From the NCBI RefSeq assembly GCF_006716765.1, contig NZ_VFPO01000001.1:682001-746000 (forward strand): 64,000 nucleotides of DNA, written 5' to 3'. The notes beneath the pieces were generated by a model that worked only from the letters and a program-made list of their open reading frames with translations, did no database searches and was not told the DNA's origin. Below are positions 37,827-55,880 of this stretch, piece by piece. A program made the position numbers and the translations under genes. Positions within the stretch are counted from its first letter, which is position 1. The number at the start of each line of letters is the position of its first letter. Source of the DNA: Actinomadura hallensis. Its GTDB lineage: Bacteria > Actinomycetota > Actinomycetes > Streptosporangiales > Streptosporangiaceae.

Positions 37827-37849
37827 CTCTTCTCCAAAAAGGGGGGTGG

Positions 37850-40287: not shown

Positions 40288-40439
40288 GCCGGGACCCTTC
40301 CTCGTGACCAGGGGATGCAAGAACGTGCCGGCGTACCGCCGGATGCGATGCGGAATGCTCCGCCCGAGCCGCCGGTGGTCCGGTGGAGCACCGGCGGCTC
40401 AGGCGGGTTTCAAGGAACGGGGGCGCCCGACCGGGACGG

Positions 40440-42182
40440 TCAGGGCTCGATGACCGTCACCGTGGCGGTGGTGCCGTCGACCTCGATGAGGGCGCCGTCC
40501 TTGATCCGCGACGACGCCTGGGTCGCGGACACGACGCAGGGGATGCCGAGTTCGCGGCTCACGATCGCCGCGTGCGAGAACGGCGCGCCCACGTCGACGA
40601 CGACCGCCGCGGCCGGAACGAACAGCGGCGTCCACGACGGGTCGGTGATCGGCGCGACGAGGATCTCGCCCGGCTCCAGGGCGGTCGGGTCGTCGGGCGA
40701 GGTGATGACCCGGGCGCGCCCGCGGGCGACGCCGCCGCAGCCGGGCACGCCCTGGATGACGGTGCCGGCCTCCACCCCGTCGACGCTCTTCTCCGAACGC
40801 CGCGGCCAGGTCTCCACCGGGTCGGGCCGGCCGACCACGACGAACGGCGGCTCGCGGTCGAACAGGTCCTCGTAGACCCGCTCCCGCTCCTCCAGCACCT
40901 CGGTGAAGTCGCCCGGCCTCTCCAGGAACTTCGGCAGCTCGTCGCCGAACAGCATGAAGATCTGCAGCGGCGAGCGCAGGGCGCCCGCGGCGTGGTGGCG
41001 CCTGCCCAGCTCCAGCGCGGGCAGCCGCAGCTCGTGGATCAGCTTCGCGCACGCGGTGCGGCTGCGCTCCCGGCCCCGCAGCCACAGCGCCGCGCCGTGC
41101 AGCGCCGCCTCGAACTGCGCGAGCGCCTCGGCGTCGCCGGCGAGCGCCTCGCGCACCTGCGCCGTGGCCTCCTCCCGCTGCGCGACGCGCTCGGCGTTCT
41201 TCGCCGCGGGGGACTCCTCGTCGGGGACGCCGCGCATGCGGTCCACGGTGGACAGGACGGGGGTGGGGTCGATGCCCCACGTCTTCGCCCGGATCTCCCA
41301 CTCGGACTGGCCGCGGAAGTCCCACTCGGACAGGAAGACGTCCAGCTTGGCGGTGAACGCCGCGACCTCGGGGTCGTCGGACGCCTTGAGCCGCTCGTGG
41401 AGCTCGGTCATGGGCACCGAGTCGAACAGCTCGGCGACCTTCCCCTCGCGGGCCAGGCGGGACAGCTCCCACATGCCGGTGGACGGCCCGGTGGAGTCCA
41501 CGTCGCCGATGCCCGCGACGAGCGTCAGCGACAGCTCCGGCCGGCCGACGGCCTCGGCGATCTGCGCGACCGCGCCGAGCCCGACGCCGCACTTCAGGCT
41601 GGCCTCCATGTGGCGCCGCAGCATCGGCCGGAACACGTCGCCGAAGGAGGTGAGGCGCTCGACCAGCTCGGCGTCGGTGAGCGCCGAGAGGTCCGGCCGG
41701 TTCTTGCGGATCTCGTCGACGGTGCGCCGGTCGTCGTCGTAGGCGGCGAGGTCGGTGGCGCCGAGCACTTCGTCGGCCAGCCACTCGCCCGCCTTCGCGG
41801 AGAACTCGGGGTTCTCGTCGAAGTCCCGCTTCTCGCTCTCGTAGGACGGGATGCCCGGCATGTCGCCGAAGTACTGCAGGTCCACGGCCTCGGGGGTCAT
41901 GCCGGGGACCCGCACGCCGAACAGCCGCATCAGCGACATGTTGATGTACAGGTAACTGCCGAAGGCCGGGAGGTTGTTGTGCTCGACCTCCTTGTCGTAG
42001 AGGTCGTGGTCCCACACCCGGCACGCGACGAACGCGTCGTCCCAGGCCGGGGACAGGTTGGCCTGGAAGCCCACGGACGCGTTCAACGGGCTGATCGGAT
42101 CGGGGAAGATCTCGCCGACATTGGCACGCGAGTACAGGGGGAACGTCTTGGACGCCCGGTCGTAGATGGGCCACCTGCTCAT
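40440..42182 (-). CDS. Dikinase middle-domain + phosphohistidine protein (PEP-synthase family, no ATP-grasp)
   Basis: 580 residues from ATG 42182 (AGAGG four bases upstream). The N-terminus YSRANVGEIFPDPISPL is the hallmark opening of the central domain of PEP synthase and rifampin phosphotransferase relatives, where the substrate binds. The C-terminal swivel domain has GAPFSHAAIVSRELGIPCVV with His537. The ATP-binding domain that normally precedes these is absent. This matches the layout of the large subunit of anaerobic phenylphosphate synthase. It would need an ATP-grasp partner, and one is encoded at 51939. A 16-bp operator-like site lies 68 bp upstream. Confidence 0.85.
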   Translation of the reverse strand: MSRWPIYDRASKTFPLYSRANVGEIFPDPISPLNASVGFQANLSPAWDDAFVACRVWDHDLYDKEVEHNNLPAFGSYLYINMSLMRLFGVRVPGMTPEAVDLQYFGDMPGIPSYESEKRDFDENPEFSAKAGEWLADEVLGATDLAAYDDDRRTVDEIRKNRPDLSALTDAELVERLTSFGDVFRPMLRRHMEASLKCGVGLGAVAQIAEAVGRPELSLTLVAGIGDVDSTGPSTGMWELSRLAREGKVAELFDSVPMTELHERLKASDDPEVAAFTAKLDVFLSEWDFRGQSEWEIRAKTWGIDPTPVLSTVDRMRGVPDEESPAAKNAERVAQREEATAQVREALAGDAEALAQFEAALHGAALWLRGRERSRTACAKLIHELRLPALELGRRHHAAGALRSPLQIFMLFGDELPKFLERPGDFTEVLEERERVYEDLFDREPPFVVVGRPDPVETWPRRSEKSVDGVEAGTVIQGVPGCGGVARGRARVITSPDDPTALEPGEILVAPITDPSWTPLFVPAAAVVVDVGAPFSHAAIVSRELGIPCVVSATQASSRIKDGALIEVDGTTATVTVIEP

Positions 42183-42249
42183 AGGACCTCTTCCTCGCCC
42201 TGGAAAGGACTTGACTGAGCCACCGCGCGACTTCGCGGCTCCCTCTTTA

Positions 42250-42265
42250 GTGACTCTGGGTTCAC
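42250..42265. promoter_or_regulatory. Island operator 1 (GTGACTCTGGGTTCAC)
   Basis: One of six GTGA-N8-TC(A/G)C sites in island promoters, 68 bp before the dikinase middle-domain gene. The region 42183-42495 holds only this site and the terminator at 42418. Confidence 0.65.
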
Positions 42266-42417
42266 ATTCTGATGTGATGTCGCGCACCCTGTCAAGGGTT
42301 GCCACCGGAAGGTTTCGGCGGGTTGGGGTGCAGGGTAACCCACGGCGCCGGAAGGTACTCAGGGCTATTCAACTGGGAAAAGTTGGCGGCGGGCATGCCG
42401 GAGCCGTCCGGCGACGC

Positions 42418-42454
42418 CGAACCGGCCGCGACCGGGACGGTCGCGGCCGGTTCG
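42418..42454 (-). terminator. 16-bp perfect hairpin after the enoyl-CoA hydratase gene
   Basis: CGAACCGGCCGCGACC pairs exactly with 42439-42454 around GGGAC, 41 bases past the stop of the leftward surE-hpaB-echA run. It is the likely terminator of that operon. Confidence 0.8.
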
Positions 42455-42495
42455 TGACGCAAGGATAGTTCGCGAACGGAGGTTCTCGTTTATTG

Positions 42496-43284
42496 TCAGG
42501 CGCGGTACCGGGGGGAGCGCTTCTCCAGGAACGCCCGGATCCCCTCCCCGGCCTCCGGGCCGGCGGCCAGTTCCGCGATCGCGGCGGCCTCGTCCGCCAG
42601 GTGCGGGACCAGGTCCGACCCGCCCGCCGCGCGGGTCAGCCGCTTGGTGTTCGCCAGCGCCGCGGGCGGGCCGGACGCCAGCGCGCCGGCCAGCGCGTTC
42701 AGCGTCCCCTCCAGCTCCTCCGGCGGGACAACCCGGCTCACCAGCCCGCGGCGCTCGGCCTCCTCGGCGTCGAGCGTCCGGTTCGTCAGCGCCAGGTCGA
42801 GCGCGACGGCGTGCCCGAGGGTCCTCCCGAGCACCCACGAGACCCCGCAGTCCGGCGACAGCCCGACCCCCGTGTAGGCGGTGCGGAACCGCGTGCCGGA
42901 CGCCGCGACGACGAGGTCGGCCAGCAGCGCGAGCCCGACCCCGGCGCCCGCGACCGCCCCGTGCACCCCCGAGATCACCGGCACCGGGGCCTCGACGAGG
43001 GCCGCGATCGCCTCGTGCATGACGCGGGCCAGCTCGGCGATGTGCTCCGACCGGTCCTCGGCGGCGGCGAACCCGGCGAGGTCGCCGCCGACGCAGAACG
43101 CGCCGCCCGCCCCGGTGAGGAGCACCACGCGCACGTCCCCGCCGTCCGCGTCCCGGAGGACCTCCCGCACCGCCCGCCGGAACTCCGTGGCGAGCTCCAT
43201 GCTGATCGCGTTGCCGCGCTCGGGGCGGTTCAGCGTGATCCGCGCGACGCCGCCGTCGAGCGACCGGCGGACGACGCCGCTCAC
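42496..43284 (-). CDS. Enoyl-CoA hydratase/isomerase family protein
   Basis: 262 residues; GTG 43284 overlaps the previous stop (GTGA). Crotonase fold: VARITLNRPERGNAIS, AFCVGGDLAGFA (first oxyanion region), VISGVHGAVAGAGVGLALLADLVVAA (second), and TGVGLSPDCGVSWVLGRTLG, where hydratases carry a glutamate. The second catalytic glutamate position appears to be Asp (SPDCG), so it may be an isomerase or hydrolase. It is coupled to the HpaB-like gene, so the likely substrate is a CoA thioester formed in this island. Confidence 0.9.
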   Translation of the reverse strand: MSGVVRRSLDGGVARITLNRPERGNAISMELATEFRRAVREVLRDADGGDVRVVLLTGAGGAFCVGGDLAGFAAAEDRSEHIAELARVMHEAIAALVEAPVPVISGVHGAVAGAGVGLALLADLVVAASGTRFRTAYTGVGLSPDCGVSWVLGRTLGHAVALDLALTNRTLDAEEAERRGLVSRVVPPEELEGTLNALAGALASGPPAALANTKRLTRAAGGSDLVPHLADEAAAIAELAAGPEAGEGIRAFLEKRSPRYRA

Positions 43285-44687
43285 GCCGACGTCTCCAGAC
43301 CCGCGAGCCGCGCGACGTACTCCCTGGCCCGGGTGGCGTCGTAGGACCGCGCCATCTGCAGCTTCTCGGCCTCCAGGGAGCCCTCGGCGTGCGTGGCGAG
43401 CACGGCCTGGTAGCCGCCGTAGTCGCGGGCGGTGAGGTCGGCGACGAAGTTCAGCAGCCGCAGCCGCTGCTCGGCGGGCACCGCGGCGGCGAAGTACTTC
43501 TCCAGCACCGCGCGCACCTCGGGGTTCGCCCAGTCGGCGCCGCCCGGCCCGGTGGCCAGCAGCCCGCCCGACAGGTCCATCAGGATCGATTTGGCCTCCG
43601 CGTACCCGTGCGCGAAGTGGTACTTCGCCATGTTGGTGGTGAGCGGGTCGGGAAGCTGGATGCCGTGCTCGCCGGGCCGGGAGCGCAGCGCCGCCAGCTC
43701 GGCGAGCCCGCGCACGGTCTCGGCGTAGGAGATCAGCCGCGCCAGCTTGTCCCGGACGTGCCCGGCCTTCGCGATGCCGTTGGCCTCGGCGACCAGCCCG
43801 GCCGCGCCGACGAACATGTCCAGCAGCGGCAGCTTGTAGTTGATCGCGGTGAACCGGTGGTAGTCCACGAACGCGATCGCGAGCCGGCCGGCGCGTTCGG
43901 CCTCGCGGTTGAGGAACACCCGGTCCTTCGGCACGCGCACGTCGTCGAAGACCGTGAGGCTCTCCAGCAGCTTGTGCCGGCTCGACAGCGGGTGCTCGAA
44001 CTCGTTGCGCTCGCCGTGCAGGAACGGGGAGACGTACAGGGTCACCCCGGGGGTGTCGACCGGGATCGCGAACGAGACGGCGTAGTCGGCGTCGTCCGGG
44101 CCCATCGCGCGGGTGGGCAGCACGACCAGCTCGTCGGCGTTGGCGGAGAAGCTGGTGTGGACCTTGGCGCCCCGCACGGTGATCGAGTCCGCGTCCTCGT
44201 CGACGATGCGCAGGTACAGGTCGGGGTCGGGCTGCGCGTGCGGCGGGACCGTCCGGTCGCCCTTGACGTCGGTCTGGGCCACCGCGAGGGCGAGGTCGCC
44301 GTCGCGGCAGCGCCGGTGGAACTCCCGCGCGTTCTCCAGGCCCTCCCCGGTGGTGGCGCGCAGCAGCCCGAACAGCGCGTCCGAGCCGACCTCCTTGAGC
44401 ACGATCGTGCCCGCGCCGAGCCGGGACACCGCCTCGATCAGCCGCCCGCGGCGCACCAGGTCCTCCGGCGTGCGGGGGACGTGGAAGAACGTCGAGTACT
44501 CGCCGTCCTCGTCCTTGCTGACGGCGAGCTCGGGCTCCAGCTCGGTGATGTCGTAGCACAGCGCGGAGTGGTCGACGGCGACCCGCAGCTCGGGGTCGGC
44601 CGTGACGTCGGCGACGGGCTCGCCGTTGTAGATCACCCGGCGGCCGTCCCGCAGTCCGGCGCGGTACTCGTCGGCGTTACGCAGCAT
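43281..44687 (-). CDS. HpaB-family flavoprotein (4-hydroxyphenylacetate 3-hydroxylase-like)
   Basis: 468 residues from ATG 44687. It opens LRNADEYRAGLRDGRRVIYNGE, the normal start of the HpaB/4-hydroxybutyryl-CoA dehydratase family. Flavin and substrate segments are visible in VRGAKVHTSFSANADELVVLPT and FLNREAERAGRLAIAFVDYHRFTAINYKLP. The dehydratase group binds an iron-sulfur cluster through a CxxxC and an H-x6-C; here the segment after DYHRF has no cysteine and no CxxxC is seen. It is therefore more likely a reduced-flavin monooxygenase. The reductase partner is not in the window. Confidence 0.85.
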   Translation of the reverse strand: MLRNADEYRAGLRDGRRVIYNGEPVADVTADPELRVAVDHSALCYDITELEPELAVSKDEDGEYSTFFHVPRTPEDLVRRGRLIEAVSRLGAGTIVLKEVGSDALFGLLRATTGEGLENAREFHRRCRDGDLALAVAQTDVKGDRTVPPHAQPDPDLYLRIVDEDADSITVRGAKVHTSFSANADELVVLPTRAMGPDDADYAVSFAIPVDTPGVTLYVSPFLHGERNEFEHPLSSRHKLLESLTVFDDVRVPKDRVFLNREAERAGRLAIAFVDYHRFTAINYKLPLLDMFVGAAGLVAEANGIAKAGHVRDKLARLISYAETVRGLAELAALRSRPGEHGIQLPDPLTTNMAKYHFAHGYAEAKSILMDLSGGLLATGPGGADWANPEVRAVLEKYFAAAVPAEQRLRLLNFVADLTARDYGGYQAVLATHAEGSLEAEKLQMARSYDATRAREYVARLAGLETSA

Positions 44688-44706
44688 GGGTGTTCGGTCC
44701 TCCCGC

Positions 44707-45513
44707 TCAGGGTCGCGCGCCTTGGGGCGCCGACAGGTCTTCGGCCATCGCCGTGACGATCTCGTCGATCTGCTCGGCCGGCAGTTGCCGCGCTCCGCCC
44801 AGCAGACCCGTCACCGCGACGTACCCGGCGGCGACCAGGCCCGCGTCGGTGTCGGCCAGGCGCGGATCGGCCAGCCGTTCGGTGTTGGCGGACCGGCCCA
44901 GCCGCAGCCCCTCGTCGACGCTGGTCAGGTCCAGGGCGGCGGAGCTGACCGGGCCCGGCGGCGCGCACCGCACGCCCTTGATCGCCGCGGCGTCCACGTC
45001 GGGGACGTTCACGTTCAGCACGGTGCGGGCCCGCGCGTGCCCGACCAGCCAGCGCAGCGCCGACCGGGCCACCAGCGCGGCGGTGTCGAAGCGGGCGCCC
45101 GGCAGGTCGCCGCAGCTGACGGCGAGCGCGGAGCGGCCGACCATCGACGCCGTCAGCGCGGCGCCCACGGTGCTGGAGAACAGCAGGTACCGCCCGGTGT
45201 TCCAGCCCGGGTTGATGCCCGACACGACGACGTCCGGCGGCGGTCCGAACCGCCCCATGCACGCGGCGAGCACGGCGAACGACGGCGGCGCGTCCACCCA
45301 GTGGGTCTCCACGTCCTCAAGGCCGTCCAGCACCATCGTGCCCGCCTTGATCACCGCGCCGTCCGCGATCGTGCCCAGCGAGGTGCCGCTGCCGCTCACG
45401 TCCGCGAGCGGGGCGACGATCACGACCTCGTGGCCCTCGTCGCGCACCGCCCGGGCGAGGACGCGCAGGCCCTCTGCCTCGACTCCGTCGTCGTTGGTCA
45501 GCAGCATCCGCAT
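44707..45513 (-). CDS. surE: SurE-type 5'/3'-nucleotidase (phosphatase)
   Basis: 268 residues from ATG 45513 (GAGGAGAGCC upstream). SurE signatures: LLTNDDGVEAEGL at the start with the metal aspartates, VSGINPGWNTGRYLLFSSTVGAALTA with the metal asparagine, and the late VLNVNVPD. SurE proteins hydrolyse phosphate monoesters from nucleotides and polyphosphate. Housekeeping surE is usually near pcm or nlpD. Here it starts an operon with HpaB-like and crotonase genes, under a GTGA-N8-TCGC site 38 bp upstream, so a role on a phosphorylated catabolite is plausible. Confidence 0.9.
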   Translation of the reverse strand: MRMLLTNDDGVEAEGLRVLARAVRDEGHEVVIVAPLADVSGSGTSLGTIADGAVIKAGTMVLDGLEDVETHWVDAPPSFAVLAACMGRFGPPPDVVVSGINPGWNTGRYLLFSSTVGAALTASMVGRSALAVSCGDLPGARFDTAALVARSALRWLVGHARARTVLNVNVPDVDAAAIKGVRCAPPGPVSSAALDLTSVDEGLRLGRSANTERLADPRLADTDAGLVAAGYVAVTGLLGGARQLPAEQIDEIVTAMAEDLSAPQGARP

Positions 45514-45550
45514 GGCTCTCCTCACTCACTGCCGGTGGCGCAGCACGATT

Positions 45551-45566
45551 GTGACCACAGGTTCGC
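45551..45566. promoter_or_regulatory. Island operator 2 (GTGACCACAGGTTCGC)
   Basis: GTGA-N8-TCGC site 38 bp upstream of the surE-like start, in the divergent region shared with the ferredoxin gene. Confidence 0.6.
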
Positions 45567-45659
45567 TGTTTTGTCCATCCGCCATGTTCGATGATCTATG
45601 TTTCCGCTGTGCACCGGGGGTTCCGATCTGCTTGACCCGCTTCGATCGAGGGGAATAAT

Positions 45660-45675
45660 GTGACTTGTAAGTCAC
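45660..45675. promoter_or_regulatory. Island operator 3 (GTGACTTGTAAGTCAC)
   Basis: The best site: a near-perfect 16-bp palindrome (GTGACTT/AAGTCAC) 22 bp before the ferredoxin start and right after AATAAT, so it probably overlaps a promoter. Confidence 0.75.
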
Positions 45676-45696
45676 AATACAGCCGTGGAGGCAGCC

Positions 45697-45885
45697 ATGA
45701 GGATCCACGTGGACACGGCGGTGTGCGCCAGTCACGGGCAGTGCGAGTTCGCGGCGCCCGAGGTGTTCGGCCTCGACGACGACGGCGAGCTGAGCTACGT
45801 CGCCGAGCCCGCTCCGGAGGAGGCCGAGAACGTGGAGCGCGCGATCCGCGCCTGTCCCACGCGCGCAATCCGCAAGGTGGAGTGA
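45697..45885 (+). CDS. 3Fe-4S ferredoxin (P450-type)
   Basis: 62 residues from ATG 45697 (GGAGG five bases upstream). Cluster ligands are in VCASHGQC (Cys-x5-Cys, with the middle cysteine replaced by His) and RACPTRAI; acidic residues dominate between them. This is the small one-cluster ferredoxin that passes electrons to actinobacterial cytochromes P450. The P450 gene lies 2.6 kb away with a similar operator, so the two are likely partners. A hairpin terminator follows. Confidence 0.95.
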   Translation: MRIHVDTAVCASHGQCEFAAPEVFGLDDDGELSYVAEPAPEEAENVERAIRACPTRAIRKVE

Positions 45886-45892
45886 CCCGGCC

Positions 45893-45939
45893 GCAACGGC
45901 CCCCGCGCAGCGGTGACGACCCTGCACGGGGGCCGTTGC
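45893..45939 (+). terminator. Hairpin after the ferredoxin gene
   Basis: GCAACGGCCCCCG pairs exactly with 45927-45939 across a 21-base loop, eight bases after the ferredoxin stop. Confidence 0.75.
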
Positions 45940-46068
45940 GCTCAAGGGGAACCGGGTCCCGTGGCCGCTGCGGCGGTGCCGCTGAGATGGTGCCGCTGAG
46001 GCTGTGCCGCGCCGAGCGCGGCCGAGGCGGAAACCGGCGGCCCGCCTCGCTGGGGAGTGCCGGTCGGC

Positions 46069-46112
46069 CGGCACGGCGCCGGAGAACCGGAGGAGTCTCC
46101 GGCGCCGTGCCG
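46069..46112 (-). terminator. 17-bp perfect hairpin after the winged-helix gene
   Basis: CGGCACGGCGCCGGAGA (46069-46085) pairs exactly with 46096-46112 around a ten-base loop, six bases past the stop of the leftward gene. Confidence 0.85.
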
Positions 46113-46117
46113 GAGCC

Positions 46118-46747
46118 TCAGCCCTCGTCCTTGGCGTCCCGCTCCTTCTGGAGGCTGAGCAGCAGGTCCTGGTGCAGCTCCATCCAGATGTCGTGGTAGG
46201 AGTCGGCGAGGGGACGGGCGAACGCCGCGACGTCACCGCCCCTGATCCGCTCCAGCGCGTTCTCCAGCCGCCTGATGTAGGCGTCGAACCGGCCGAGGGC
46301 CGTGGCGAGGTCTTTCAGCACCACCGTGATCCGGTCGTGCACCTCGCCGAGCCGCGCCACCACGCCGTCGTCGTACGCGCGGTCGGTGTGGTCGTTCGGC
46401 TCGCCCGTGTCCGAACGCACCTGCCAGTCGGTGCACAGGCGCTTGAACTCACCGTTGACCGGCAGGAACGCCTCGTAGGCGGTGTCCAGCGCCGCCTTGC
46501 GGGCGGGGTCGGCGACGTCGGCCGCCAGCAGCTCCGCATAGGCCTCCTTGCCGGCCGGGGTCAGCATGCTCCCCGCCATGCGGCCCTCCCGCCGCAGGAC
46601 GAGCTTCTCCTCGACCAGCTCCGACAGCCGCGCGGCCGCGTCCCCGGCCGGCAGGCCGGAGATCGCGGCGACCAGCTCGTCGGACGCGAGTCCCTTCACC
46701 CGCAGCGCGTGCAGCACGAGGAAACGGGGGTCGCTTGAAGTGGTCAT
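46118..46747 (-). CDS. Winged-helix protein (PadR/MarR-like), possible dikinase accessory
   Basis: 209 residues; ATG 46747 overlaps the acyl-CoA ligase stop (ATGA). Residues 1-75 form a winged helix (FLVLHALRVKGLASDELVAAI, RLSELVEEKLVLRREGR, GSMLTPAGKEAYAELL). The rest is helical and not typical of PadR dimers: FLPVNGEFKRLCTDWQVRS, then LGRFDAYIRRLENALERI. It may be a regulator or, given its constant company of PEP-utilising proteins here, a non-DNA-binding accessory. I cannot decide between the two. Confidence 0.6.
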   Translation of the reverse strand: MTTSSDPRFLVLHALRVKGLASDELVAAISGLPAGDAAARLSELVEEKLVLRREGRMAGSMLTPAGKEAYAELLAADVADPARKAALDTAYEAFLPVNGEFKRLCTDWQVRSDTGEPNDHTDRAYDDGVVARLGEVHDRITVVLKDLATALGRFDAYIRRLENALERIRGGDVAAFARPLADSYHDIWMELHQDLLLSLQKERDAKDEG

Positions 46748-48288
46748 GCGGTGCCTTCCCTTAGTGCGGGCGAGGCGGCGAGCACCTCGCGCAGTGAGTT
46801 CTTGTTGAGCTTGCCCGTGGGGAGGCGCGGGAGCCCGTCGACGAACACGACCCTCTTCGGGGCCTTGAACCGGGCCAGCCGCTCGCGGCACCACTCGATG
46901 AGCTCCTCCTCGCTCACCTCGCCGGAGGCCTCCACCACGGCGGTCACCCGTTCGCCGAACTCGGGATCGGGCGTGCCGATCACGGCCGCGTCCAGCACCC
47001 GGGGATGCGCCGTCAGGACGTCCTCGATCTCGACCGGGTAGATGTTCACCCCGCCGGAGATGATCGTGTGGCTCTCGCGGCCGCTCAGGTAGAGGTAGCC
47101 GTCCTCGTCGAGGCTCCCCAGGTCGCCGACGCTGCGCCAGCCGTCGCGGTGCACCGGCTCGCCGTCGCCGTCGTTGCTGTAGGCGGCCGTCGCCGCGGGC
47201 TCGAACCACACCTTGCCGACCCGGCCCGGCGGCAGCACCTCGCCCCGCTCGTCGGTGATGTGCACCCGGCCGGACAGGGGCCTGCCGACCGTGCCGGGGC
47301 GGGCGAGCGCCTCCTCCGGCGAGACGTAGGTGTGCCCGTAGCCCTCGGACGCGCCGTAGTACTCGTGCAGGATCGGCCCCCACCACCGCATCACGTCCTC
47401 CTTCAGCTGGGCCGAGCACGGCGCTCCGGAGGTGACGGCCACGCGGTGGTCGCGCAGGGCGTACCGGGCCTTGACGTCGTCGGGCAGGCGCAGCAGCCGC
47501 AGCAGCATCGTCGGCACCCACTGCGAGTGCGTGACGCGGTGCCGGTCGATGGCGGCGAGCGCGGCCTCCGGGTCGAAGCGCTCCAGGCACACCACCGTCC
47601 CCCCGGCCGACATCACCATCAGCTGGAAGGTGAACGGGGCGGCGTGGTAGTTCGGCGCCGGGGACAGGAAGACGGTGTCGGCGCCGAGCCCCAGCTTCTC
47701 GGCGAGCGCACCGTGCCGGGCGGGGGCGTCGGCGGGATGGACGTCGATCAGCCGCTGCCGGAACGCCTTCGGCCGTCCCGTGGTGCCCCCGCTGTACAGC
47801 ACGCGCGCGCCGAGCCGCTCGTCGGCGATCGGGGTCTCCGGCCGGCCGGCGAGCGCGTCCTCGAAGGAGGTGAACCCGGGCGGGGGGTCGTCGACGCACA
47901 GCGCGGCGACCCGGTCGCCGCAGCCGAGCCGGTCGAGCACCTCCGCCACGGCCTCGGCGCACGTCGCGGAGGTGACCACGGCGCCGGGCGCGTCGCCGCC
48001 GAGCGCCTCGGCCAGCAGCGCGGTCAGCTCGGCGACGGTCAGGTGCCAGTTGACGGGGGTGACGTAGAGCCCGGCCCGCATGCCGGCGGCGACGACCACC
48101 GGCCATTCGATGCGGTTCTCCATGACGATCACCAGCGGGCCGCCGCGGCGCACCCCGCGGGCGCGCAGGAAGTGCGCCAGCTGGTTGGACCGCGTGTCGA
48201 GCCGCCCGTAGGTGAGCGACTCTCCACCGCTCCCCATCACATAGGCTTGCGCGTCCGGATGCCGCTGAGCGATCTGGGCCGGGTACAC
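46744..48288 (-). CDS. Acyl-CoA synthetase (FadD-like AMP ligase)
   Basis: 514 residues from GTG 48288 (weak ribosome site). The ATP motif is LYSGGTTGRPKAFRQRL; further motifs are APNYHAAPF, EYYGASEGYGHTY, VHRDGWRSVGDLGSLDEDGYLYLSGR, ISGGVNIYPVEIEDVL and the catalytic lysine in LPTGKLNKNSLRE. It activates a carboxylic acid to its CoA thioester, probably the acid made by the P450 and dehydrogenases of the divergent operon. Operator 4 lies 39 bp upstream. Confidence 0.93.
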   Translation of the reverse strand: MYPAQIAQRHPDAQAYVMGSGGESLTYGRLDTRSNQLAHFLRARGVRRGGPLVIVMENRIEWPVVVAAGMRAGLYVTPVNWHLTVAELTALLAEALGGDAPGAVVTSATCAEAVAEVLDRLGCGDRVAALCVDDPPPGFTSFEDALAGRPETPIADERLGARVLYSGGTTGRPKAFRQRLIDVHPADAPARHGALAEKLGLGADTVFLSPAPNYHAAPFTFQLMVMSAGGTVVCLERFDPEAALAAIDRHRVTHSQWVPTMLLRLLRLPDDVKARYALRDHRVAVTSGAPCSAQLKEDVMRWWGPILHEYYGASEGYGHTYVSPEEALARPGTVGRPLSGRVHITDERGEVLPPGRVGKVWFEPAATAAYSNDGDGEPVHRDGWRSVGDLGSLDEDGYLYLSGRESHTIISGGVNIYPVEIEDVLTAHPRVLDAAVIGTPDPEFGERVTAVVEASGEVSEEELIEWCRERLARFKAPKRVVFVDGLPRLPTGKLNKNSLREVLAASPALREGTA

Positions 48289-48326
48289 GATGCAGGACCG
48301 CCTTCGTCATCGATGCCGTCTCGTTT

Positions 48327-48342
48327 GTGAATGGTAAGTCGC
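48327..48342. promoter_or_regulatory. Island operator 4 (GTGAATGGTAAGTCGC)
   Basis: GTGA-N8-TCGC site 39 bp upstream of the acyl-CoA ligase start, on the left side of the divergent region 48289-48503. Confidence 0.6.
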
Positions 48343-48457
48343 TTAGTCGCCCAGCGCAACGGGATGGTCGGACCCCCTGTGTACTGCACCTTCGCAGGAC
48401 CCTGCCCATAGGGCCGTGGGCCGTCCGCCCTTCCCAACGCTCGCGAGATGTGTTTTA

Positions 48458-48473
48458 GTGATAGTGCGTTCGC
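48458..48473. promoter_or_regulatory. Island operator 5 (GTGATAGTGCGTTCGC)
   Basis: GTGA-N8-TCGC site 31 bp upstream of the P450 start, flanked by TTTTA and AAAC as other sites are. Confidence 0.6.
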
Positions 48474-48503
48474 AAACGAACGGCCGAGCGAGGAGGGACA
48501 GCG

Positions 48504-49718
48504 GTGTCCGAGCAAGCCACCCTCGACCTCATGGACCTGAGCGCCTTCGCCGAAGGCCGGGACCACGAGGTCTTCCGCGCGCTGCGGGATCACGACCCCC
48601 TGCACTGGAACGACGAACCGGACGGTCGCGGGTTCTGGTCCGTGACGCGGTACGCCGACATCCAGCAGGTCGCCTCCGACCACAAGACCTTCTCCTCCGC
48701 CGAGGGCACGCAGATCCAGGACAGGCGCGCCGAAGGCCAGGGCGACCCGAGCATCCACAACATGGACCCGCCCGAGCAGACCGCGCTGCGCCGCATCGTC
48801 GTGCCGCACATGCGCCCGGCGAAGATCCGCCAGATGGAGGGCGTGATCGTCGAGGCGGTCGACGGGCTGCTCGACAAGGCCCTCGCCGAGGGCGGCGCGG
48901 AGGAGGACTTCGACTTCGTCCACCAGATCGCCGCGCAGCTGCCCCTCCTGATCATCGGACGGATGCTCGGCGCGCCCGCCGAGGCCTGCCCCCACATGCA
49001 GCGCTGGACCAACCAGATGGCCTCGGAGGACCCGGAGTACAGCGCCGGCCCGGAGACCATGGCCGCCGCGCGGGACGAGGTGTTCTCGTACTTCCGCGAA
49101 CTCGAGCGGGAACGCCGCGCCGAGCCGCGCGAGGACATCGTCAGCGCGCTCGCCCACGCCGAGCTGAACGGCGAGCCGCTGCGCCGCGGCCAGCTCGACG
49201 CCTACTACCTGCTGCTCATGGTGGCGGGCAACGAGACGACCCGGAACCTGCTCTCGGGCGGCGTCGTCGGCCTCGCCGGCGAGCCCGAGCAGTGGCGCGC
49301 GCTCAAGGCCGACCCCGACCGCGTGCCCTCCGCCGTCGAGGAGATGGTGCGCTGGGTGTCCCCCGTGCTGTCGATGCGCCGCACCGCGACCCGCGACGTC
49401 GAGCTCCACGGCAAGACGATCAAGGCGGGGGAGAAGGTCGTCATGTGGTTCTGCTCGGGCAACCGCGACGAGCGGGTCTTCAAGGACCCGGACCGCTTCC
49501 TGTACGACCGCTCGCCCAACGACCACATCGGGTTCGGGTGGGGCGTGCACGCCTGCCTCGGCGCGCACCTGGCCCGCGTGGAGGCCCGGTTGTTCTTCCA
49601 GCGGCTGATCGAGCGCGGGCTGCGCGTCGAGGTCCGCGGGGAGCCCGAGCGGCTGCAGAGCAACTTCTTCCGCGGCATCAAGCGCCTTCCCGTCCGGCTG
49701 GTGACCGACCGTGGCTGA
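48504..49718 (+). CDS. Cytochrome P450
   Basis: 404 residues from GTG 48504 (GAGGAGGG upstream). I-helix VAGNETTRNLL, K-helix EEMVRW, and the heme loop FGWGVHACLGAHLAR with Cys351. HNMDPPEQTALRRIV is typical of soluble class I bacterial P450s of the CYP107/125-like groups that hydroxylate terpenoids, steroids or fatty chains. Electrons should come from the 3Fe-4S ferredoxin at 45697. It is first of a P450-aldehyde dehydrogenase-SDR-dikinase operon with overlapping genes. Confidence 0.96.
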   Translation: MSEQATLDLMDLSAFAEGRDHEVFRALRDHDPLHWNDEPDGRGFWSVTRYADIQQVASDHKTFSSAEGTQIQDRRAEGQGDPSIHNMDPPEQTALRRIVVPHMRPAKIRQMEGVIVEAVDGLLDKALAEGGAEEDFDFVHQIAAQLPLLIIGRMLGAPAEACPHMQRWTNQMASEDPEYSAGPETMAAARDEVFSYFRELERERRAEPREDIVSALAHAELNGEPLRRGQLDAYYLLLMVAGNETTRNLLSGGVVGLAGEPEQWRALKADPDRVPSAVEEMVRWVSPVLSMRRTATRDVELHGKTIKAGEKVVMWFCSGNRDERVFKDPDRFLYDRSPNDHIGFGWGVHACLGAHLARVEARLFFQRLIERGLRVEVRGEPERLQSNFFRGIKRLPVRLVTDRG

Positions 49719-51150
49719 GCGCGGACGCCGGCGCGACGACTGGCTCGGCCGGGCGCCGTGCCTGATCGGCGGCGACTGGGTGACCACCCCCGGCGACGCC
49801 GTGCCGGTCGTCGACCCCTACACCGAGCGCGCGATCGGGGAGGCCGGCGAGGCCGGGCCCGACCTGGTCGAGAAGGCGGTGGACGCCGCGGCGCGCGCCG
49901 CCGCGTCCTGGGGCGCGAGCGACCCGGAGGCCCGCGCGGAGCTGCTGGAGCGGCTCGCGGCGCTGCTCGACGAGCACGCCGCCGACCTCGCGGCGCTCGT
50001 CACCCGCCAGATGGGGATGCCCGCCGCCCTCGCCAGGGCCAGCCAGGCCGAGCTGCCCGCCGCGGTGCTGCGGTCGTTCGCCGGCCTCGCCCGCACGACC
50101 GCCTGGCGCGAGCGGATCGAGGGCGCCGAACTGGTCCGGGTCCCCCGCGGGGTCGTCGGCGCGATCACGCCGTGGAACATGCCGGTGCACCAGATCGTCG
50201 CGAAGCTCGGCGCGGCGCTCGCGGCGGGCAACACCGTGGTGCTCAAGCCGAGCGAGCAGACGCCGTTCGACGCCGTCCGGTTCGGCGAGCTGTGCCTCGA
50301 CGCCGGTCTCCCGGCCGGCGTCGTGAACATCGTGCACGGCACCGGCCCCGTCACCGGGTCCGCGCTCGCCGCCTCCCCGGGCGTGGACGCGGTGTCGTTC
50401 ACCGGCAGCGTCGGGGCGGGCCGGACGGTCGCCGAACTGGCCGCGCGGCACCTCGCGCCCGTCACCCTCGAGCTCGGCGGCAAGTCCCCGGCCGTGGTCC
50501 TGCCGGACGCCGACCTGGCTTCGGCGGTGCCCGCCGTGGTGCGCTCCGGCCTGGTCAACTCCGGCCAGGCGTGCAACGCCACCACGCGGCTCGTCCTGCC
50601 GCGCGCCCGCGCCGCCGACGCGACCGAGCTGATCGCCCGCGCGCTGGAGGGGCTGACCCCGGGCGACCCGATGCTGCCGGAGACCACGTTCGGCCCGCTG
50701 TCGTCCGCGCGGCAGCGGGACCGCGTGCTGGAGCACCTCGCCGCCGCCGGGGACTCGCCGGCGCTCACCGCCCACGAGGACAACTTGCCCGGCCACGGAT
50801 ACTTCGTGGCCCCGCGGGTGTTCACCGGCCTGCCCGCCGGCTCGCCGCTGCTGCGCGAGGAGATCTTCGGGCCGGTCCTGGCCGTCCAGTGGTACGACGA
50901 CGAGGACGAGGCCGCCCGGCTCGCCGGCGACAACGACTACGGGCTGTCGGCGGAGGTGTGGTCGGCCGACCCCGACCGCGCCGCCGCGTTCGGACGCCGC
51001 CTGCGCGTCGGCCAGGTCAAGGTCAACGGCGTGCGCACCCGGGAGCGTCCCGCCGTCCCGTTCGGCGGGTTCGGACTGTCGGGCTTCGGCCGCGAGCTGG
51101 GCGCCGAGGGACTGCTGGAGATGACGACCGTCCAGGCGGTGATGAGCTGA
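49711..51150 (+). CDS. Aldehyde dehydrogenase
   Basis: 479 residues; GTG 49711 overlaps the P450 stop by 8 bp. NAD(P)-binding ITPWNMPVHQIVAKLG and FTGSVGAGRTVAELA, the general base in LELGGKSPAVVL and the nucleophile in NSGQACNATTRL. EEIFGPVLAVQWY and PFGGFGLSGFGRE close the fold. It oxidises an aldehyde to the acid, in line with a P450/alcohol/aldehyde/acid/CoA-ligase sequence in this island. Confidence 0.95.
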   Translation: MAERGRRRDDWLGRAPCLIGGDWVTTPGDAVPVVDPYTERAIGEAGEAGPDLVEKAVDAAARAAASWGASDPEARAELLERLAALLDEHAADLAALVTRQMGMPAALARASQAELPAAVLRSFAGLARTTAWRERIEGAELVRVPRGVVGAITPWNMPVHQIVAKLGAALAAGNTVVLKPSEQTPFDAVRFGELCLDAGLPAGVVNIVHGTGPVTGSALAASPGVDAVSFTGSVGAGRTVAELAARHLAPVTLELGGKSPAVVLPDADLASAVPAVVRSGLVNSGQACNATTRLVLPRARAADATELIARALEGLTPGDPMLPETTFGPLSSARQRDRVLEHLAAAGDSPALTAHEDNLPGHGYFVAPRVFTGLPAGSPLLREEIFGPVLAVQWYDDEDEAARLAGDNDYGLSAEVWSADPDRAAAFGRRLRVGQVKVNGVRTRERPAVPFGGFGLSGFGRELGAEGLLEMTTVQAVMS

Positions 51151-51917
51151 TGACCGGACGCAGGATCGTGGTGACCGGCGCGGCGTCGGGCATCGGCCTG
51201 GCGCTGGCCGACCGGCTGCTGGCCGCCGGGGACGCCGTCATCGGCCTCGACCGCTCCCCGTGCCCGGACCGGATCACCACCTCGGTCCAGGTCGACCTGG
51301 GCGACCCCGACGCGGTGCGCGCGGCCGTGGCGTCCCTCGACGGTCCCGTGCACGGGATCGCCAACGTCGCCGGCGTGCCCGGAACCGCGCCGCCCGAGGT
51401 CGTCCTGGCGGTCAACCTGCTCGGCGCCCGGGTGCTCACCGAGGCGCTGCTGCCGCGGCTGCCGGAGGGCGCCGCGGTGGTCAACGTCGCGTCCGTCGCG
51501 GCGCACCGCAACACCGTCGCCCCCGAGGCGCTCGACGAGCTGGTCGGGGTCGAGGACGCCGCCGGGGTCCGCGCCTGGCTCACGCGTCACCCGCTGGACG
51601 GGCCCGCCGCCTACGACACCTCCAAGGCGGCGATGCTCGCCTGGACCGAACGGCTCGCGGTGCGCCTGCTGCCGCGCCGCGTGCGGGCCGTCAGCGTCAG
51701 CCCCGGCCCCGTCGACACCCCCATCCTCGACGACTTCCGCACCACGATGGGGGCCGACCGCTTCGACGGCGCGGTCGCGCTGGTCGGCAGGCACGGCACC
51801 GCCGGAGAGATCGCCGCGGTCGTCGAGTTCGTCCTCGGGCCGGACGCCTCCTGGCTGAACGGCGTCGACGTCCCCGTCGAAGGCGGTCTGTACGCCGCCC
51901 GCAAGCACCGCCCGTGA
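51150..51917 (+). CDS. Short-chain dehydrogenase/reductase
   Basis: 255 residues; ATG 51150 shares one base with the aldehyde dehydrogenase stop. Cofactor loop VVTGAASGIGLALADRL, DLGDPDAVR, NVAGVPG, and the active-site YDTSKAAML with Tyr-x3-Lys; SPGPVDTPIL follows. The segment between strand 4 and the active site is longer than usual. It resembles 3-alpha-hydroxysteroid/carveol-type dehydrogenases that oxidise cyclic alcohols. It probably oxidises the P450 product. Confidence 0.94.
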   Translation: MTGRRIVVTGAASGIGLALADRLLAAGDAVIGLDRSPCPDRITTSVQVDLGDPDAVRAAVASLDGPVHGIANVAGVPGTAPPEVVLAVNLLGARVLTEALLPRLPEGAAVVNVASVAAHRNTVAPEALDELVGVEDAAGVRAWLTRHPLDGPAAYDTSKAAMLAWTERLAVRLLPRRVRAVSVSPGPVDTPILDDFRTTMGADRFDGAVALVGRHGTAGEIAAVVEFVLGPDASWLNGVDVPVEGGLYAARKHRP

Positions 51918-51938
51918 CTGGAAAGGAACCCGGAACCG

Positions 51939-53405
51939 ATGGACCAGAGCACCCTCGCCGGTGACGTTCATCTGCTGGACGGCACCCTCCCGCTGACGCG
52001 GGAGGCCGTCGGAGGCAAGGCGTACAGCCTCAACCGCATGAGCGCCCTCGGGCTGCCCGTCCCGCCCGCGTTCGCTATCGGCGTCGACGTCTGCCCCGCC
52101 TACCACGAGGCGGGCGGACGGGTGCCGGACCCGGTGTGGGCGGGCGTGCTGGAGCGCCTCGCCGAACTGGAGCGCCGCACCGGCCGCCGCTTCGGCGACG
52201 CGGCCGCGCCGCTGCTGCTCTCCGTGCGGTCGGGCGCCGAGCGGAGCATGCCCGGCATGATGGACACCGTCTTGAACCTCGGCCTGACCGAGACGCTGCG
52301 CGACGCGCTGGCCGAGCAGTCCGGGAACCGTGAATGGGCCGACGACACCTGGACGCGGTTCGTCCGCTCGTACACCGACATCGTCGGCTCCGCGCCGCCC
52401 GCCGACCCGGTGGAGCAGCTGCGCGAGGCCATCGGCGCCGTCTTCCGGTCCTGGTTCTCCGAGCGGGCGGTCGCCTACCGGGAGCGGCACGGGATCACCG
52501 ACCTGGCGGGCACCGCGGTCACCGTGCAGGCCATGGTCTTCGGCAACCTGAACGCCGACTCGGGCACCGGGGTGCTGTTCACGCGCGACCCCAACACCGG
52601 CGAGCCGGGGCTGTTCGGCGAGTGGCTGGCCAAGGCGCAGGGCGAGGACGTCGTCTCGGGCGAGCGGACCCCGCAGCCGCTGTCGGCCCTCGCGGAGGCG
52701 CAGCCGGGCAACCACGCGGAACTGGAGCGCATCGCGCGGATCCTCGAGGAGGACCACCGCGACATGGTGGACGTCGAGTTCACCATCGAGTCCGGCACGC
52801 TGTACGTGCTGCAGGCCCGGGCCGGCAAGCGCACGGCGCTGGCCGCCGCCCGGATCGCCGTGGACATGGCGAACGAGGGCCTCATCGACCGGCGCACCGC
52901 CCTCGACCGCGTGACGCCGGAGCAGGCGCGGCAGCTGGAGGAGCAGGGCGGCGGCGCGGTCGGCGGGGAGAGGCTCGCCACCGGGCTCGGCGCGAGCCCG
53001 GGCGTCGGGAAGGGCGTCGCGGTCACCGACACCGACGAGGCGCTCCGGCTCGCCGACGCGGGCGAGTCCGTGGTGCTGGTGCGTCCCGCGACGTCGCCGG
53101 AGGACGTGCCCGCCATGTTCGTGTCCGCCGCGGTCGTCACCGAGCACGGCGGCGGCACGTCCCACGCCGCGCTCGTGTGCCGGGAGATCGGGCTGCCCTG
53201 CGTCGTCGGTTGCGGAGACGGCACCATGGGAGCCCTCGACGGCCGTACGATCACGGTCGACGGCACCGCGGGAGTCGTCCTCGACGGTGCGGTCGACACC
53301 GCGGGCGGCGGCGCCGGACAGGAGCTGATCGAGACGCTCACCGCGTGGGCCGGCGAGCTCACCGGACGGACGGGACCGCTGCCGGAACTGCTGTCGGCCC
53401 GTTGA
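51939..53405 (+). CDS. ppdK: PPDK-like ATP-grasp + phosphohistidine protein lacking the PEP barrel
   Basis: 488 residues from ATG 51939 (GGAAAGGAACC upstream). N-terminal ATP-binding domain: VGGKAYSLNRMSALGLPVPP, LLSVRSGAERSMPGMMDTVLNLG, FTRDPNTGEPGLFGEWL and DVEFTIESGTLYVLQAR. The phosphohistidine domain follows, with EHGGGTSHAALVCREIGLPC and His409. Normal PPDK continues for about 350 residues with a PEP/pyruvate barrel; that is absent. Short PpdK proteins of this size exist in mycobacteria (Rv1127c). It can make the phosphohistidine from ATP, but the acceptor must be another protein or a non-pyruvate substrate. Confidence 0.9.
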   Translation: MDQSTLAGDVHLLDGTLPLTREAVGGKAYSLNRMSALGLPVPPAFAIGVDVCPAYHEAGGRVPDPVWAGVLERLAELERRTGRRFGDAAAPLLLSVRSGAERSMPGMMDTVLNLGLTETLRDALAEQSGNREWADDTWTRFVRSYTDIVGSAPPADPVEQLREAIGAVFRSWFSERAVAYRERHGITDLAGTAVTVQAMVFGNLNADSGTGVLFTRDPNTGEPGLFGEWLAKAQGEDVVSGERTPQPLSALAEAQPGNHAELERIARILEEDHRDMVDVEFTIESGTLYVLQARAGKRTALAAARIAVDMANEGLIDRRTALDRVTPEQARQLEEQGGGAVGGERLATGLGASPGVGKGVAVTDTDEALRLADAGESVVLVRPATSPEDVPAMFVSAAVVTEHGGGTSHAALVCREIGLPCVVGCGDGTMGALDGRTITVDGTAGVVLDGAVDTAGGGAGQELIETLTAWAGELTGRTGPLPELLSAR

Positions 53406-53428
53406 CGGTGGATCATCGGAATAATAAA

Positions 53429-53444
53429 GTGAACCGACATTCAC
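53429..53444. promoter_or_regulatory. Island operator 6 (GTGAACCGACATTCAC)
   Basis: GTGA-N8-TCAC site with 5-bp arms, 21 bp upstream of the TetR start and after GGAATAATAA, which also precedes operator 3. It suggests that the TetR protein controls its own gene. Confidence 0.7.
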
Positions 53445-53464
53445 AAACATTGGCGGAGTAGAAC

Positions 53465-54220
53465 GTGGTGATGGAGACGGGCCGGCAGCGGCGCGCGGAC
53501 GGCGCGCCGGCGCCCGACGCCGCGCGGGAGAACGAGGCCGCGCGCCGGCACATCCGGCAGCTGATCGCGAGCCTGCTGCCGGAGAGCGCGGAGAAGCGGC
53601 CCAACAAACGCGGCCAGGAGACCCGCGAGAAGCTCATAGCGGCGGCCGCGGACTGCTTCAGCGACTACGGCTACAACCGGACGCGCATCTCCGACATCGC
53701 CAGTCGCGCGGGCACCGCGCAGGGCAACTTCTACCGCCACTTCTCCAGCCTCGACGAGATCTTCCTCGCCGCGCTGCAGCCCGCCCTGGAGGAGCTCGCG
53801 TCGACCTCGGCGCCGTCGCACCCCAACGAGGGCGGGCTCCAGCACCTGATCAACCAGAACATCACCTACCTGCAGGTCTACAGCCGCAACCGGCACCTGC
53901 TGCGGGTGATGCGCGAGGCCGCCGCGAGCGAGCACGAGGGCTTCGCCTCGCTGTGGCTCCAGCTGCGCGCCGGGTTCGTCCACCGGACCCGGCGCTGGCT
54001 GGAGCGCCTGCACGAGCGCGGCAAGATCGGCTCCGCGGACTTCGGCCTGCTCGCCGAGGCGCTCGGCTCCCTCACCGAGCAGATGGCCTACGTCCACGTC
54101 GGCCTGCCGCCGGTCGCCCCCCGCCCGGAACGCATCAAGGAACTGGCCACGGTGATCGGCGAAGTCTGGTACCGCGCCCTCCCCCCGGTGGACGAGAAGA
54201 CCCCGGACCCGGCCCCCTGA
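53465..54220 (+). CDS. TetR-family regulator with N-terminal extension
   Basis: 251 residues from GTG 53465; GTG 53468 and ATG 53471 are close alternatives. A polar 45-residue extension precedes the helix-turn-helix ([47 protein letters not shown]). The ligand domain runs to residue 240. Its position at the end of the P450-dikinase operon, and the site GTGAACCGACATTCAC before it, make it the best candidate for the island's repressor. The ligand is probably a pathway CoA thioester or substrate. Confidence 0.93.
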
Positions 54221-54281
54221 CCCCACACCACGGCGGCTGGTCGTGCGGGAATACCGCCGCGCGGCGGATTGTCCTACCGGT

Positions 54282-54788
54282 GTGACCACCGAGAAGGCAA
54301 TCCTCGCCGGCGGCTGCTTCTGGGGCATGGAGGAGCTGTTCCGTCATCAGCCCGGCGTCGTGTCGACGCGCGTCGGGTACAGCGGCGGCGACGTCCCGAA
54401 CGCCACCTACCGGAACCACGGCACCCACGCGGAGTCCATCGAGGTCGTCTACGACCCGGAGAAGACCGACTACCGGACGCTCCTCGAGTTCTTCTTCCAG
54501 ATCCACGACCCCACGACGAAGAACCGCCAGGGCAACGACATCGGCACCAGCTACCGGTCGGCCATCTTCTACATCGGCGACGAGCAGAGGCGCATCGCCG
54601 AAGAGACGATCGCGGACGTGGACGCCTCGGGTCTGTGGCCCGGCAAGGTCGTCACCGAGGTCGCCCCTGCGGGCGACTTCTGGGAGGCCGAACCGGAGCA
54701 CCAGGACTACCTGCAGAAGTACCCCGACGGCTACACCTGCCACTTCCCGCGTCCCGGCTGGAAGCTCCCGAAGCGGACGACGGCCTGA
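54282..54788 (+). CDS. msrA: Peptide methionine sulfoxide reductase A
   Basis: 168 residues from GTG 54282. Active-site loop [15 protein letters not shown], then [23 protein letters not shown], the FFQIHDPTT strand, YRSAIFY and [18 protein letters not shown]. It reduces methionine S-sulfoxide in proteins using thioredoxin. The start has only a weak ribosome site. It is monocistronic, and a bidirectional hairpin follows. Confidence 0.97.
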
Positions 54789-55676: not shown

Positions 55677-55880
55677 ATGCCGGTGACGCTAGGGCTCGTC
55701 CTTCTCGTTCAGGGCGGCGGAGGCCTGATCAACAACCTGTTCGCCGATTCCAAGAGCTGGTTCCTGCTGAACCATCTGGAGCTGCCGGCGGCCGTCCGCC
55801 TGGCCGGGCACGCGGTGCTGCTCGTCATCGGGCTCCTCCTCCTTGCCCGGCGCGACGGCTGGGCACGGCTGCTCCCATGA
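55677..55880 (+). CDS. 67-residue membrane protein
   Basis: ATG 55677 with AAGGTGG upstream; the stop overlaps the esterase start (ATGA). Two hydrophobic helices (VTLGLVLLVQGGGGLI and VRLAGHAVLLVIGLLLLA) joined by a polar loop NLFADSKSWFLLNHLELP. No family is known to me. It is translated ahead of a secreted carboxylesterase and is probably controlled by the divergent TetR. Confidence 0.75.
   Translation: MPVTLGLVLLVQGGGGLINNLFADSKSWFLLNHLELPAAVRLAGHAVLLVIGLLLLARRDGWARLLP

Follow-up and report, generated by a model that had tools for sequence, protein, structure and literature searches.

The window, by which we mean the whole 64,000-nucleotide stretch of DNA that was analysed, carries an island of catabolic genes together with two candidate regulators. 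On the plus strand lie a 62-aa ferredoxin (45697–45885; PF13370), a cytochrome P450 (48504–49718), an aldehyde dehydrogenase (ALDH; 49711–51150; best NCBIfam model PRK13473 at 385 bits, below the cut-off of 615), a short-chain dehydrogenase (SDR; 51150–51917; PF13561), a PPDK-like protein of 488 residues with ATP-grasp and swivel domains (51939–53405; PF01326 and PF00391) and a TetR-family regulator (53465–54220). A search for a close solved P450 structure found none, the nearest being CYP125-like, then CYP126, CYP153 and CYP124. The minus strand encodes a FadD4-like acyl-CoA synthetase (46744–48288; 500 bits, below the cut-off of 850), a winged-helix protein annotated as MarR in Rhodococcus pyridinivorans P23 (46118–46747), a SurE-family phosphatase (44707–45525; PF01975), an HpaB-family flavin monooxygenase (43281–44687; PF11794 and PF03241), an enoyl-CoA hydratase (ECH; 42496–43284; PF00378) and an RPH-like PEP-utilising enzyme with substrate-binding and swivel domains (40440–42182; PF00391, with a match to 5fbs/5fbt). 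These are followed, at 35219–40287, by an LLM oxidoreductase, an unknown protein, a swivel domain, a phosphotransferase and a DUF7065-like protein (below cut-off).

Six intergenic copies of a 16-bp palindrome, GTGA-N8-TC(A/G)C, reported in the initial annotation at 42250, 45551, 45660, 48327, 48458 and 53429, are all present at those places with their A/T flanks, and the distance of 21–68 bp then given to the downstream genes is about right: 67, 25, 21, 38, 30 and 20 bases, respectively, separate them from the assumed start codons. Putative operator 1 (42250–42265) precedes the PEP-utilising enzyme (minus strand, assumed ATG at 42182) and scores 30.6 bits with a matrix trained only on relatives; operator 2 (45551–45566; 23.3 bits) precedes a SurE-HpaB-ECH operon (minus strand, GTG at 45525) and operator 3 (45660–45675; 37.6 bits) the ferredoxin (plus strand, ATG at 45697). 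Operator 4 (48327–48342; 29.1 bits) lies before the acyl-CoA synthetase and the MarR-annotated gene (minus strand, GTG at 48288), operator 5 (48458–48473; 26.4 bits) before a P450-ALDH-SDR-PPDK operon (plus strand, GTG at 48504), and operator 6 (53429–53444; 33.2 bits) before tetR itself (plus strand, GTG at 53465), which thus has its own site, as had been noted. The sites at 42250, 45660 and 53429 match the pattern on both strands, and the TTTA/AAAC flanks of operator 5 are the same at the P450 promoter in many relatives. The operon starting at 40287 has no visible site, as the annotation had it, the top score near its start being -1.8 (at 40260, relatives-only matrix).

The 16-mer in its loose form is less rare than was first thought. 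The estimate of about two chance matches in 64 kb was too low, as shuffles (n = 100; largest count 12) gave 5.8 with both strands counted; the window has 13 strand-wise matches at 10 distinct places, four of them outside the island stretch (32371, 33275, 34060 and 58472), and the genome has 348 + 312 strand-wise matches, or about 6.3 per 64 kb. Perfect palindromes allowing one mismatch show no excess in the window (21 observed vs. 20.8 expected). The signal emerges when the pattern is extended by the flanks and by one more inner base: WWGTGAHN6DTCRC occurs at only 12 distinct places in the 6.70-Mb genome, half of which are the six island sites (uniform expectation 0.02) while the other six have matrix scores of 3.1 to 16.7, and all five occurrences of the stringent WWGYGAHN6DTCRCWW in the 6.70-Mb genome fall in the island, 45551 missing this pattern through its right flank. 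Neither extended pattern is blind, because the window sites, as well as the column frequencies of the relatives, had already been seen when both were picked. The relatives-only matrix is blind, and it ranks the six sites 1 to 6 in the window at 23–38 bits, with the next match at 14.0 and a background maximum of 14.6 bits over 400 kb from this genome; one further place in the genome (L084) scores 16.7 bits. In 64 same-genus genomes lacking the TetR orthologue the stringent pattern occurred 102 times (0–5 each); single matches therefore mean little and only clustering counts.

TetR orthologue, gene cluster and sites co-occur across genomes, nearly always of actinobacteria; in the genus survey the orthologue was present only in its own genome (next best 35% identity among 64 others). 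Over the window and 38 cluster records, 132 sites exceed 17 bits, and 128 of them are close to the start of a cluster gene (tetR in 11 cases); most of the 132 had trained the matrix. Held-out loci also carry sites at the same promoters: two plasmid clusters have six (L062; 25.7–33.0 bits) and four (L098; 31.0–34.8 bits), and five further genome loci have 4–5 each, with 17 of these 21 sites not identical to any training site. Both plasmid clusters are on pA of R. pyridinivorans P23; each is a copy of the core gene set that carries the same sites, and their TetR proteins are 64% and 60% identical to that of the island. The arrangement there differs in that the cluster is plasmid-borne and the PEP-utiliser and SurE genes lie next to each other in divergent orientation. 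When no motif was chosen beforehand, the top dyad was GTGA-N8-TCAC, found in 26 of 38 relatives' loci (10 for the best dyad in 20 shuffles); in the window it occurs at five of the six promoters and the next dyad at four. In 15 of the 38 relatives' records, three sites or fewer exceed 17 bits, and several contigs end early; L026 and L027 have nothing above 14 bits, yet each shows the core pattern at two promoters. L099, a dikinase/P450 cluster that lacks this TetR, has no site (best 11.7), and one of eight distant PEP-utiliser paralogue loci reaches 15.4 (L090). Fifteen of the 20 contigs from a second orthologue search agree in length with first-search contigs; they were taken as repeats of these and were excluded from the promoter-proximity, cluster-record, GTGA-N8-TCAC dyad and N6-dyad counts.

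Four of the six sites overlap, or directly adjoin on the downstream side, a sigma-70-like -10 box, and these are the only such promoters in the 14 kb scanned. Operator 1 follows directly on the -10 box of TTGACA-18-CAGAAT (42266–42295, minus strand) and operator 3 on that of TTGACC-16-AATAAT, while operator 2 overlaps the -10 box of TGGACA-18-CACAAT and operator 6 the last two bases of that in TTGACG-17-TAAAGT. By an E. coli-type consensus, a promoter-like match lies within 40 nt of 34 of the 132 sites compared with 31 of 7800 random positions; the remaining 98 sites, 48327 and 48458 included, have no such match within that distance by the same E. coli-type consensus. The spacing between site and promoter recurs in relatives, with an offset of +8 in 25 cases and of -11 in six.

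The protein encoded at 53465 has an N-terminal TetR helix-turn-helix domain (PF00440, 54.1 bits against a cut-off of 24; recognition helix residues 86–92), and its AF2 model (pLDDT 90.8) is an all-helical TetR fold with a ligand domain that matches EthR chains with a target-normalised TM of up to 0.84. No named TetR subfamily fits (best NCBIfam match ScbR-like, 63 bits vs. a cut-off of 150), and no close solved TetR structure was found, the best 50 folds being 15–24% identical. In the first-search loci the invariance of the recognition helix QGNFYRHF carries a bias, as the peptide itself was among the search patterns; a second search was therefore run without it, and the helix was kept in 20 of 20 orthologues. 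The protein's gene has the palindrome at its own promoter here (53429), and in the 39 records, the window included, 11 sites are close to tetR; in many Gordonia and Rhodococcus loci tetR lacks a site of its own. The arrangement is like that of autoregulated local repressors of this family such as EthR, DarR, FasR and SaFadR, which share the TetR fold and helix-turn-helix, in that the gene lies within its putative regulon and a palindromic site stands at the promoters, its own included.

Taken together, the joint occurrence of motif, TetR and cluster, the invariant helix and the position of sites at -10 boxes make a single regulon at about 40–54 kb under the 53465 protein, as originally proposed, the best reading. 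The palindrome is very probably the operator of this protein: a dimer would bind the two half-sites, GTGA...TCRC, on top of the -10 box or immediately behind it, and repress six units (PEP-utilising enzyme; SurE-HpaB-ECH; ferredoxin; acyl-CoA synthetase with the MarR-like gene; P450-ALDH-SDR-PPDK; tetR), and the pathway substrate or an intermediate would act as the ligand that releases it. Transcription of the 40287 operon, which has no site, probably comes by read-through from the unit at 42250; the operon lies on the same strand as the PEP-utilising gene across a 152-base gap in which no terminator-like match was found, and the PEPutil-APH-LLM genes are contiguous in L122. A variant compatible with this reading, in which TetR binds but activates, or represses some units and tunes others, has a small probability: 48327 and 48458 have no promoter-like match and the surE promoter has an offset of -11, unlike the +8 elsewhere, but an operator on or after the -10 box usually blocks polymerase.

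That the six sites arose by chance, or are no more than generic A/T-rich promoter sequence in a genome of 73% G+C, is hardly credible. The 660 strand-wise genome matches of the loose 16-mer and the unremarkable count of one-mismatch palindromes would fit it, but we reject it on the blind ranking, the background maximum, the confinement of the stringent form and the dyad test, and the same promoters were looked for and found to carry sites in held-out clusters. A CRP/GlxR-type global regulator is a very unlikely reader. Its operator, TGTGA-N6-TCACA, has the GTGA/TCAC half-sites in common, and a separate TGTGA-N6-TCAC dyad stands at one promoter in 21 relatives' loci; the island sites, however, have N8 spacing, their stringent form is island-only where a global regulator would be expected genome-wide, and the N8 and N6 dyads stand next to each other at a constant distance of 23 bp and are therefore different elements. 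With the spacing failing and the N6 dyads separate, CRP/GlxR was rejected for the N8 sites. A degenerate TGTGA-N6-TCACA dyad (42273–42288) is present in the spacer of the promoter of the operator 1 unit.

The second candidate regulator of the island, the MarR-annotated protein (46118–46747), is also unlikely to read the sites, if less so than CRP/GlxR. Its gene belongs to the same regulon and to most relatives' clusters (30 of 33; 35 of 39 records), and residues 7–62 model as a winged helix aligning to MarR domains. However, its helix-turn-helix stretch belongs to the least conserved regions of the protein and is net negative in 31 of 31 rows, 22 of the 24 invariant residues fall at position 94 or later, and the fold as a whole has no match among solved structures at E 0.001, the best matches aligning about 70 of 209 residues at a query TM of about 0.3. 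The family is also wider than the island, with matches in 30 of 396 genomes (PEP-utiliser relatives occur in five of the 396, four of them only 37–45% identical); all 11 of its 30 other matches that were examined, at 3.6 kb each, lack a site (best 12.6), and the 14-kb L028 contig, which carries the TetR and two sites, yielded no homologue. The TetR protein remains the preferred reader.

The operator and regulon appear to be new but of a known kind: a literature search by title and abstract opening found no description of this TetR, operator or cluster, and we know of no TetR operator with this sequence. With this operator, one catabolic regulon can be defined cleanly and testably in many actinobacteria, and the TetR protein, usable as a sensor for the inducer, offers a route to the pathway substrate; in other respects the system is that of an ordinary local repressor. 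The gene content points to a P450 pathway primed by phosphate, chemistry that to our knowledge has been reported for few substrates. Tentatively, at somewhat less than even chances, we read the island as an undescribed catabolic pathway, sparse but wide in actinobacteria, in which the dikinase would phosphorylate the substrate, the P450 and dehydrogenases oxidise it and SurE dephosphorylate it, with one TetR sensing the substrate or its phosphate and a CRP-like dyad in the -35/-10 spacer of the dikinase promoter.

Judged by analogy, the pathway appears to resemble dikinase-plus-P450 catabolism of the CreHI/HpeHI type. As in CreHI, HpeHI and PpsAB (4-cresol, hydroxyphenylethanones and phenol), compared by description, a PEP-utilising substrate-plus-swivel protein stands beside a separate ATP-grasp protein. 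Beyond CreHI, the cre set of C. glutamicum includes a P450, an SDR, an ALDH and a phosphatase, and the island has parallels to all four. The island differs from those systems in that its P450 is nearest to CYP125-like structures, its phosphatase is of SurE type and no carboxylase was found among the island proteins scanned. Its 488-residue ATP-grasp partner holds both PF01326 and PF00391 and so keeps its own swivel domain, PPDK-like, whereas HpeI is given as the ATP-grasp part alone in PMC12167813, which also identifies 5fbs/5fbt as RPH. The 580-residue PEP-utilising protein matches RPH residues 572–866 plus the PEP-utilizers domain, and its conserved His is visible in the translation.

All six GTGA-N8-TC(A/G)C sites of the initial annotation were confirmed in the catabolic island (35219-54220), at 42250, 45551, 45660, 48327, 48458 and 53429, with start codons 20-67 bases downstream; the starts at 42182 and 40287 were chosen among several possible in their open frames. 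The bare 16-mer with TC(A/G)C is not rare, with 660 strand-wise matches across the 6.70-Mb genome and 13 in the window vs. 5.8 expected, a chance figure that had initially been set too low, at about two; the perfect palindrome with one mismatch allowed showed no excess in the window. The distinguishing mark of the six sites is an A/T flank together with the next inner base. WWGTGAHN6DTCRC occurs at 12 distinct genome places, six of them inside the island, and WWGYGAHN6DTCRCWW at five, all five inside the island, both patterns having been composed with knowledge of the window sites and of base frequencies in the relatives.

With the TetR protein (53465-54220, plus strand) as query, we obtained 31 loci, all from named genomes and all but one with an actinobacterial label, and the core pattern recurs between cluster genes across these loci. 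From 88 of the relatives' sites (82 distinct), chosen by a training rule that combined the annotated core with A/T flanks, we derived a 28-column matrix, leaving the window out. Applied to the window, it gave its six highest scores to the six sites (37.6 to 23.3 bits), followed by a probable chance match at 57425-57440 (14.0 bits, within the open frame 55877-57511) and then by 6.4 bits; across 400 kb taken from this genome the top score was 14.6 bits, and the six WWGTGAHN6DTCRC places outside the island scored at most 16.7 bits. Motif-free dyad counts also returned GTGA-N8-TCAC as commonest, both upstream of the relatives' cluster genes (26 of 38 loci, the best dyad in 20 shuffles reaching 10 loci) and in the window, where it fits 5 of 6 promoters if one mismatch is tolerated and the next dyad fits 4 of 6.

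Clusters outside the training set carried the same sites. On Rhodococcus pyridinivorans P23 plasmid pA, which holds two cluster copies, one copy (L062) has six sites of 25.7-33.0 bits and the other (L098) four of 31.0-34.8 bits plus two of 17.3 and 16.9; acyl-CoA carboxylase subunits lie near one copy. When 401 genomes from one family were searched at the protein level, 20 proved to encode the TetR, every one with E below 1e-76; the search listed nothing else at E values up to 1e-40. Five of these 20 loci, on contigs outside the 31-locus set, show 4-5 sites apiece, located at the same promoters, and 4 of their 21 sites are identical to training sites. The nearest TetR found is that of Sinosporangium album (72%), and the other 64 searched genomes of the genus hold no close relative (best 35% identity). 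At least 102 stringent-pattern matches occur in these 64 genomes, at 0-5 per genome, so it is clustering and not single matches that carries weight; all 10 of the 20 TetR genomes searched have matches within about 13 kb of tetR, accounting for 34 of 52. A related dikinase/P450 cluster without TetR in Rhodococcus sp. ZPP scored 11.7 at best, and the highest score among eight short loci that carry distant PEP-utiliser paralogues was 15.4. Two TetR loci (L026 and L027) count against the assignment: no site there exceeds 14 bits, although the core pattern is present near their tetR and PEP-utiliser genes, with G+C-rich flanks. A MAG contig labelled gammaproteobacterial, possibly through misbinning, has one site (22.1 bits) between divergent PEP-utiliser and tetR genes; its cluster genes are in a different order and its TetR is 43% identical.

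A sigma-70-like scan of 40200-54300 found four promoters vs. 0.2 expected, all at sites: TTGACA-18-CAGAAT (on the minus strand, its end at 42266 abutting the site at 42265-42250), TGGACA-18-CACAAT (also on the minus strand, with its end at 45548 and an overlap with the site at 45551), TTGACC-16-AATAAT (ending at 45659) and TTGACG-17-TAAAGT (ending at 53430); none was found at 48327 or 48458. Across 39 records, 34 of 132 sites above 17 bits had a promoter within 40 nt, compared with 31 of 7800 random positions, at offsets of +8 (25), -11 (6) and four single others. A dimer bound at these positions would overlie either the -10 box or the transcription start, where repressors usually sit.

The high-confidence TetR structure model (pLDDT 90.8) has a fold as in EthR, DarR and FasR, and its predicted recognition helix is residues 86-92 (QGNFYRH); QGNFYRHF is kept in all 20 orthologues of the 401-genome search. 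The sites might instead be read by the island's MarR-annotated protein (46118-46747, minus strand), so named in the P23 plasmid annotation, but the winged helix of this protein shows little conservation and is acidic in 31 of 31 rows, and 22 of the protein's 24 invariant residues lie at position 94 or beyond. Moreover, a search of 396 genomes turned up matches to it in 30, and none of the 11 fetched from the 30 non-island matches had the motif. Given this poor fit, we assign the six sites to TetR as its putative operator. The MarR-annotated protein combines a winged helix with a helical bundle, has no whole-fold match in the PDB and has a 38%-identical relative in the same genome (3737778-3738359); its C-terminal half contains invariant Asn, His, Asp, Trp and Glu residues, which suggests that it works as a partner or an enzyme.

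Transcription units were inferred from strand and spacing. The PEP-utiliser (42182 to 40440) would be followed, 152 bases on, by 40287 to 35219; the gap has no terminator-like match, and read-through is supported by three relatives (L122, L137 and L098) in which the PEP-utiliser, phosphotransferase and LLM genes are consecutive on one strand. The 450-residue protein at 37853-39202 has no Pfam match at E up to 1. The remaining predicted units are SurE, HpaB and ECH (45525 to 42496), ferredoxin (45697 to 45885), acyl-CoA synthetase and the MarR-like gene (48288 to 46118), P450, ALDH, SDR and PPDK-like (48504 to 53405), and tetR (53465 onward), perhaps with the next gene, read as msrA by eye.

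A second dyad, the CRP/GlxR-like GTGA-N6-TCAC, lies at the PEP-utiliser promoter, its centre exactly 23 bp from that of the TetR operator; the window copy (42273-42288) falls inside the -35/-10 spacer. It accompanies the operator in 21 relatives' loci (e.g., L062:11444 and L120:3675), and of 27 exact N6 dyads in 823,587 bases, 21 have an operator no more than 120 bp away, in every case at the 23-bp spacing. The window copy departs from TGTGA-N6-TCACA at two positions, a level of mismatch at which the window holds 6 matches vs. 9.3 expected; since looser matches show no excess, it is exact position alone that argues for this copy.

The island's P450, SDR, ALDH and phosphatase beside an HpeHI-like kinase form a set that we take to resemble the cre pathway of Corynebacterium glutamicum. 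PMC9618137 presents HpeHI, CreHI and phenylphosphate synthase as related kinases, and in PMC12167813 HpeI is the ATP-grasp part and HpeH the substrate and swivel part. The island's two-protein dikinase pair is like HpeHI, although its ATP-grasp partner, unlike that of HpeHI, carries a swivel domain of its own. In the main text of PMC13101518 the terms PEP-utilizing, dikinase and CreH do not occur; a P450 is listed there with an LLM F420 oxidoreductase, with no evident tie to this cluster. Because the closest structures to the island P450 are CYP125-like, a branched or terpenoid side chain would suit it.
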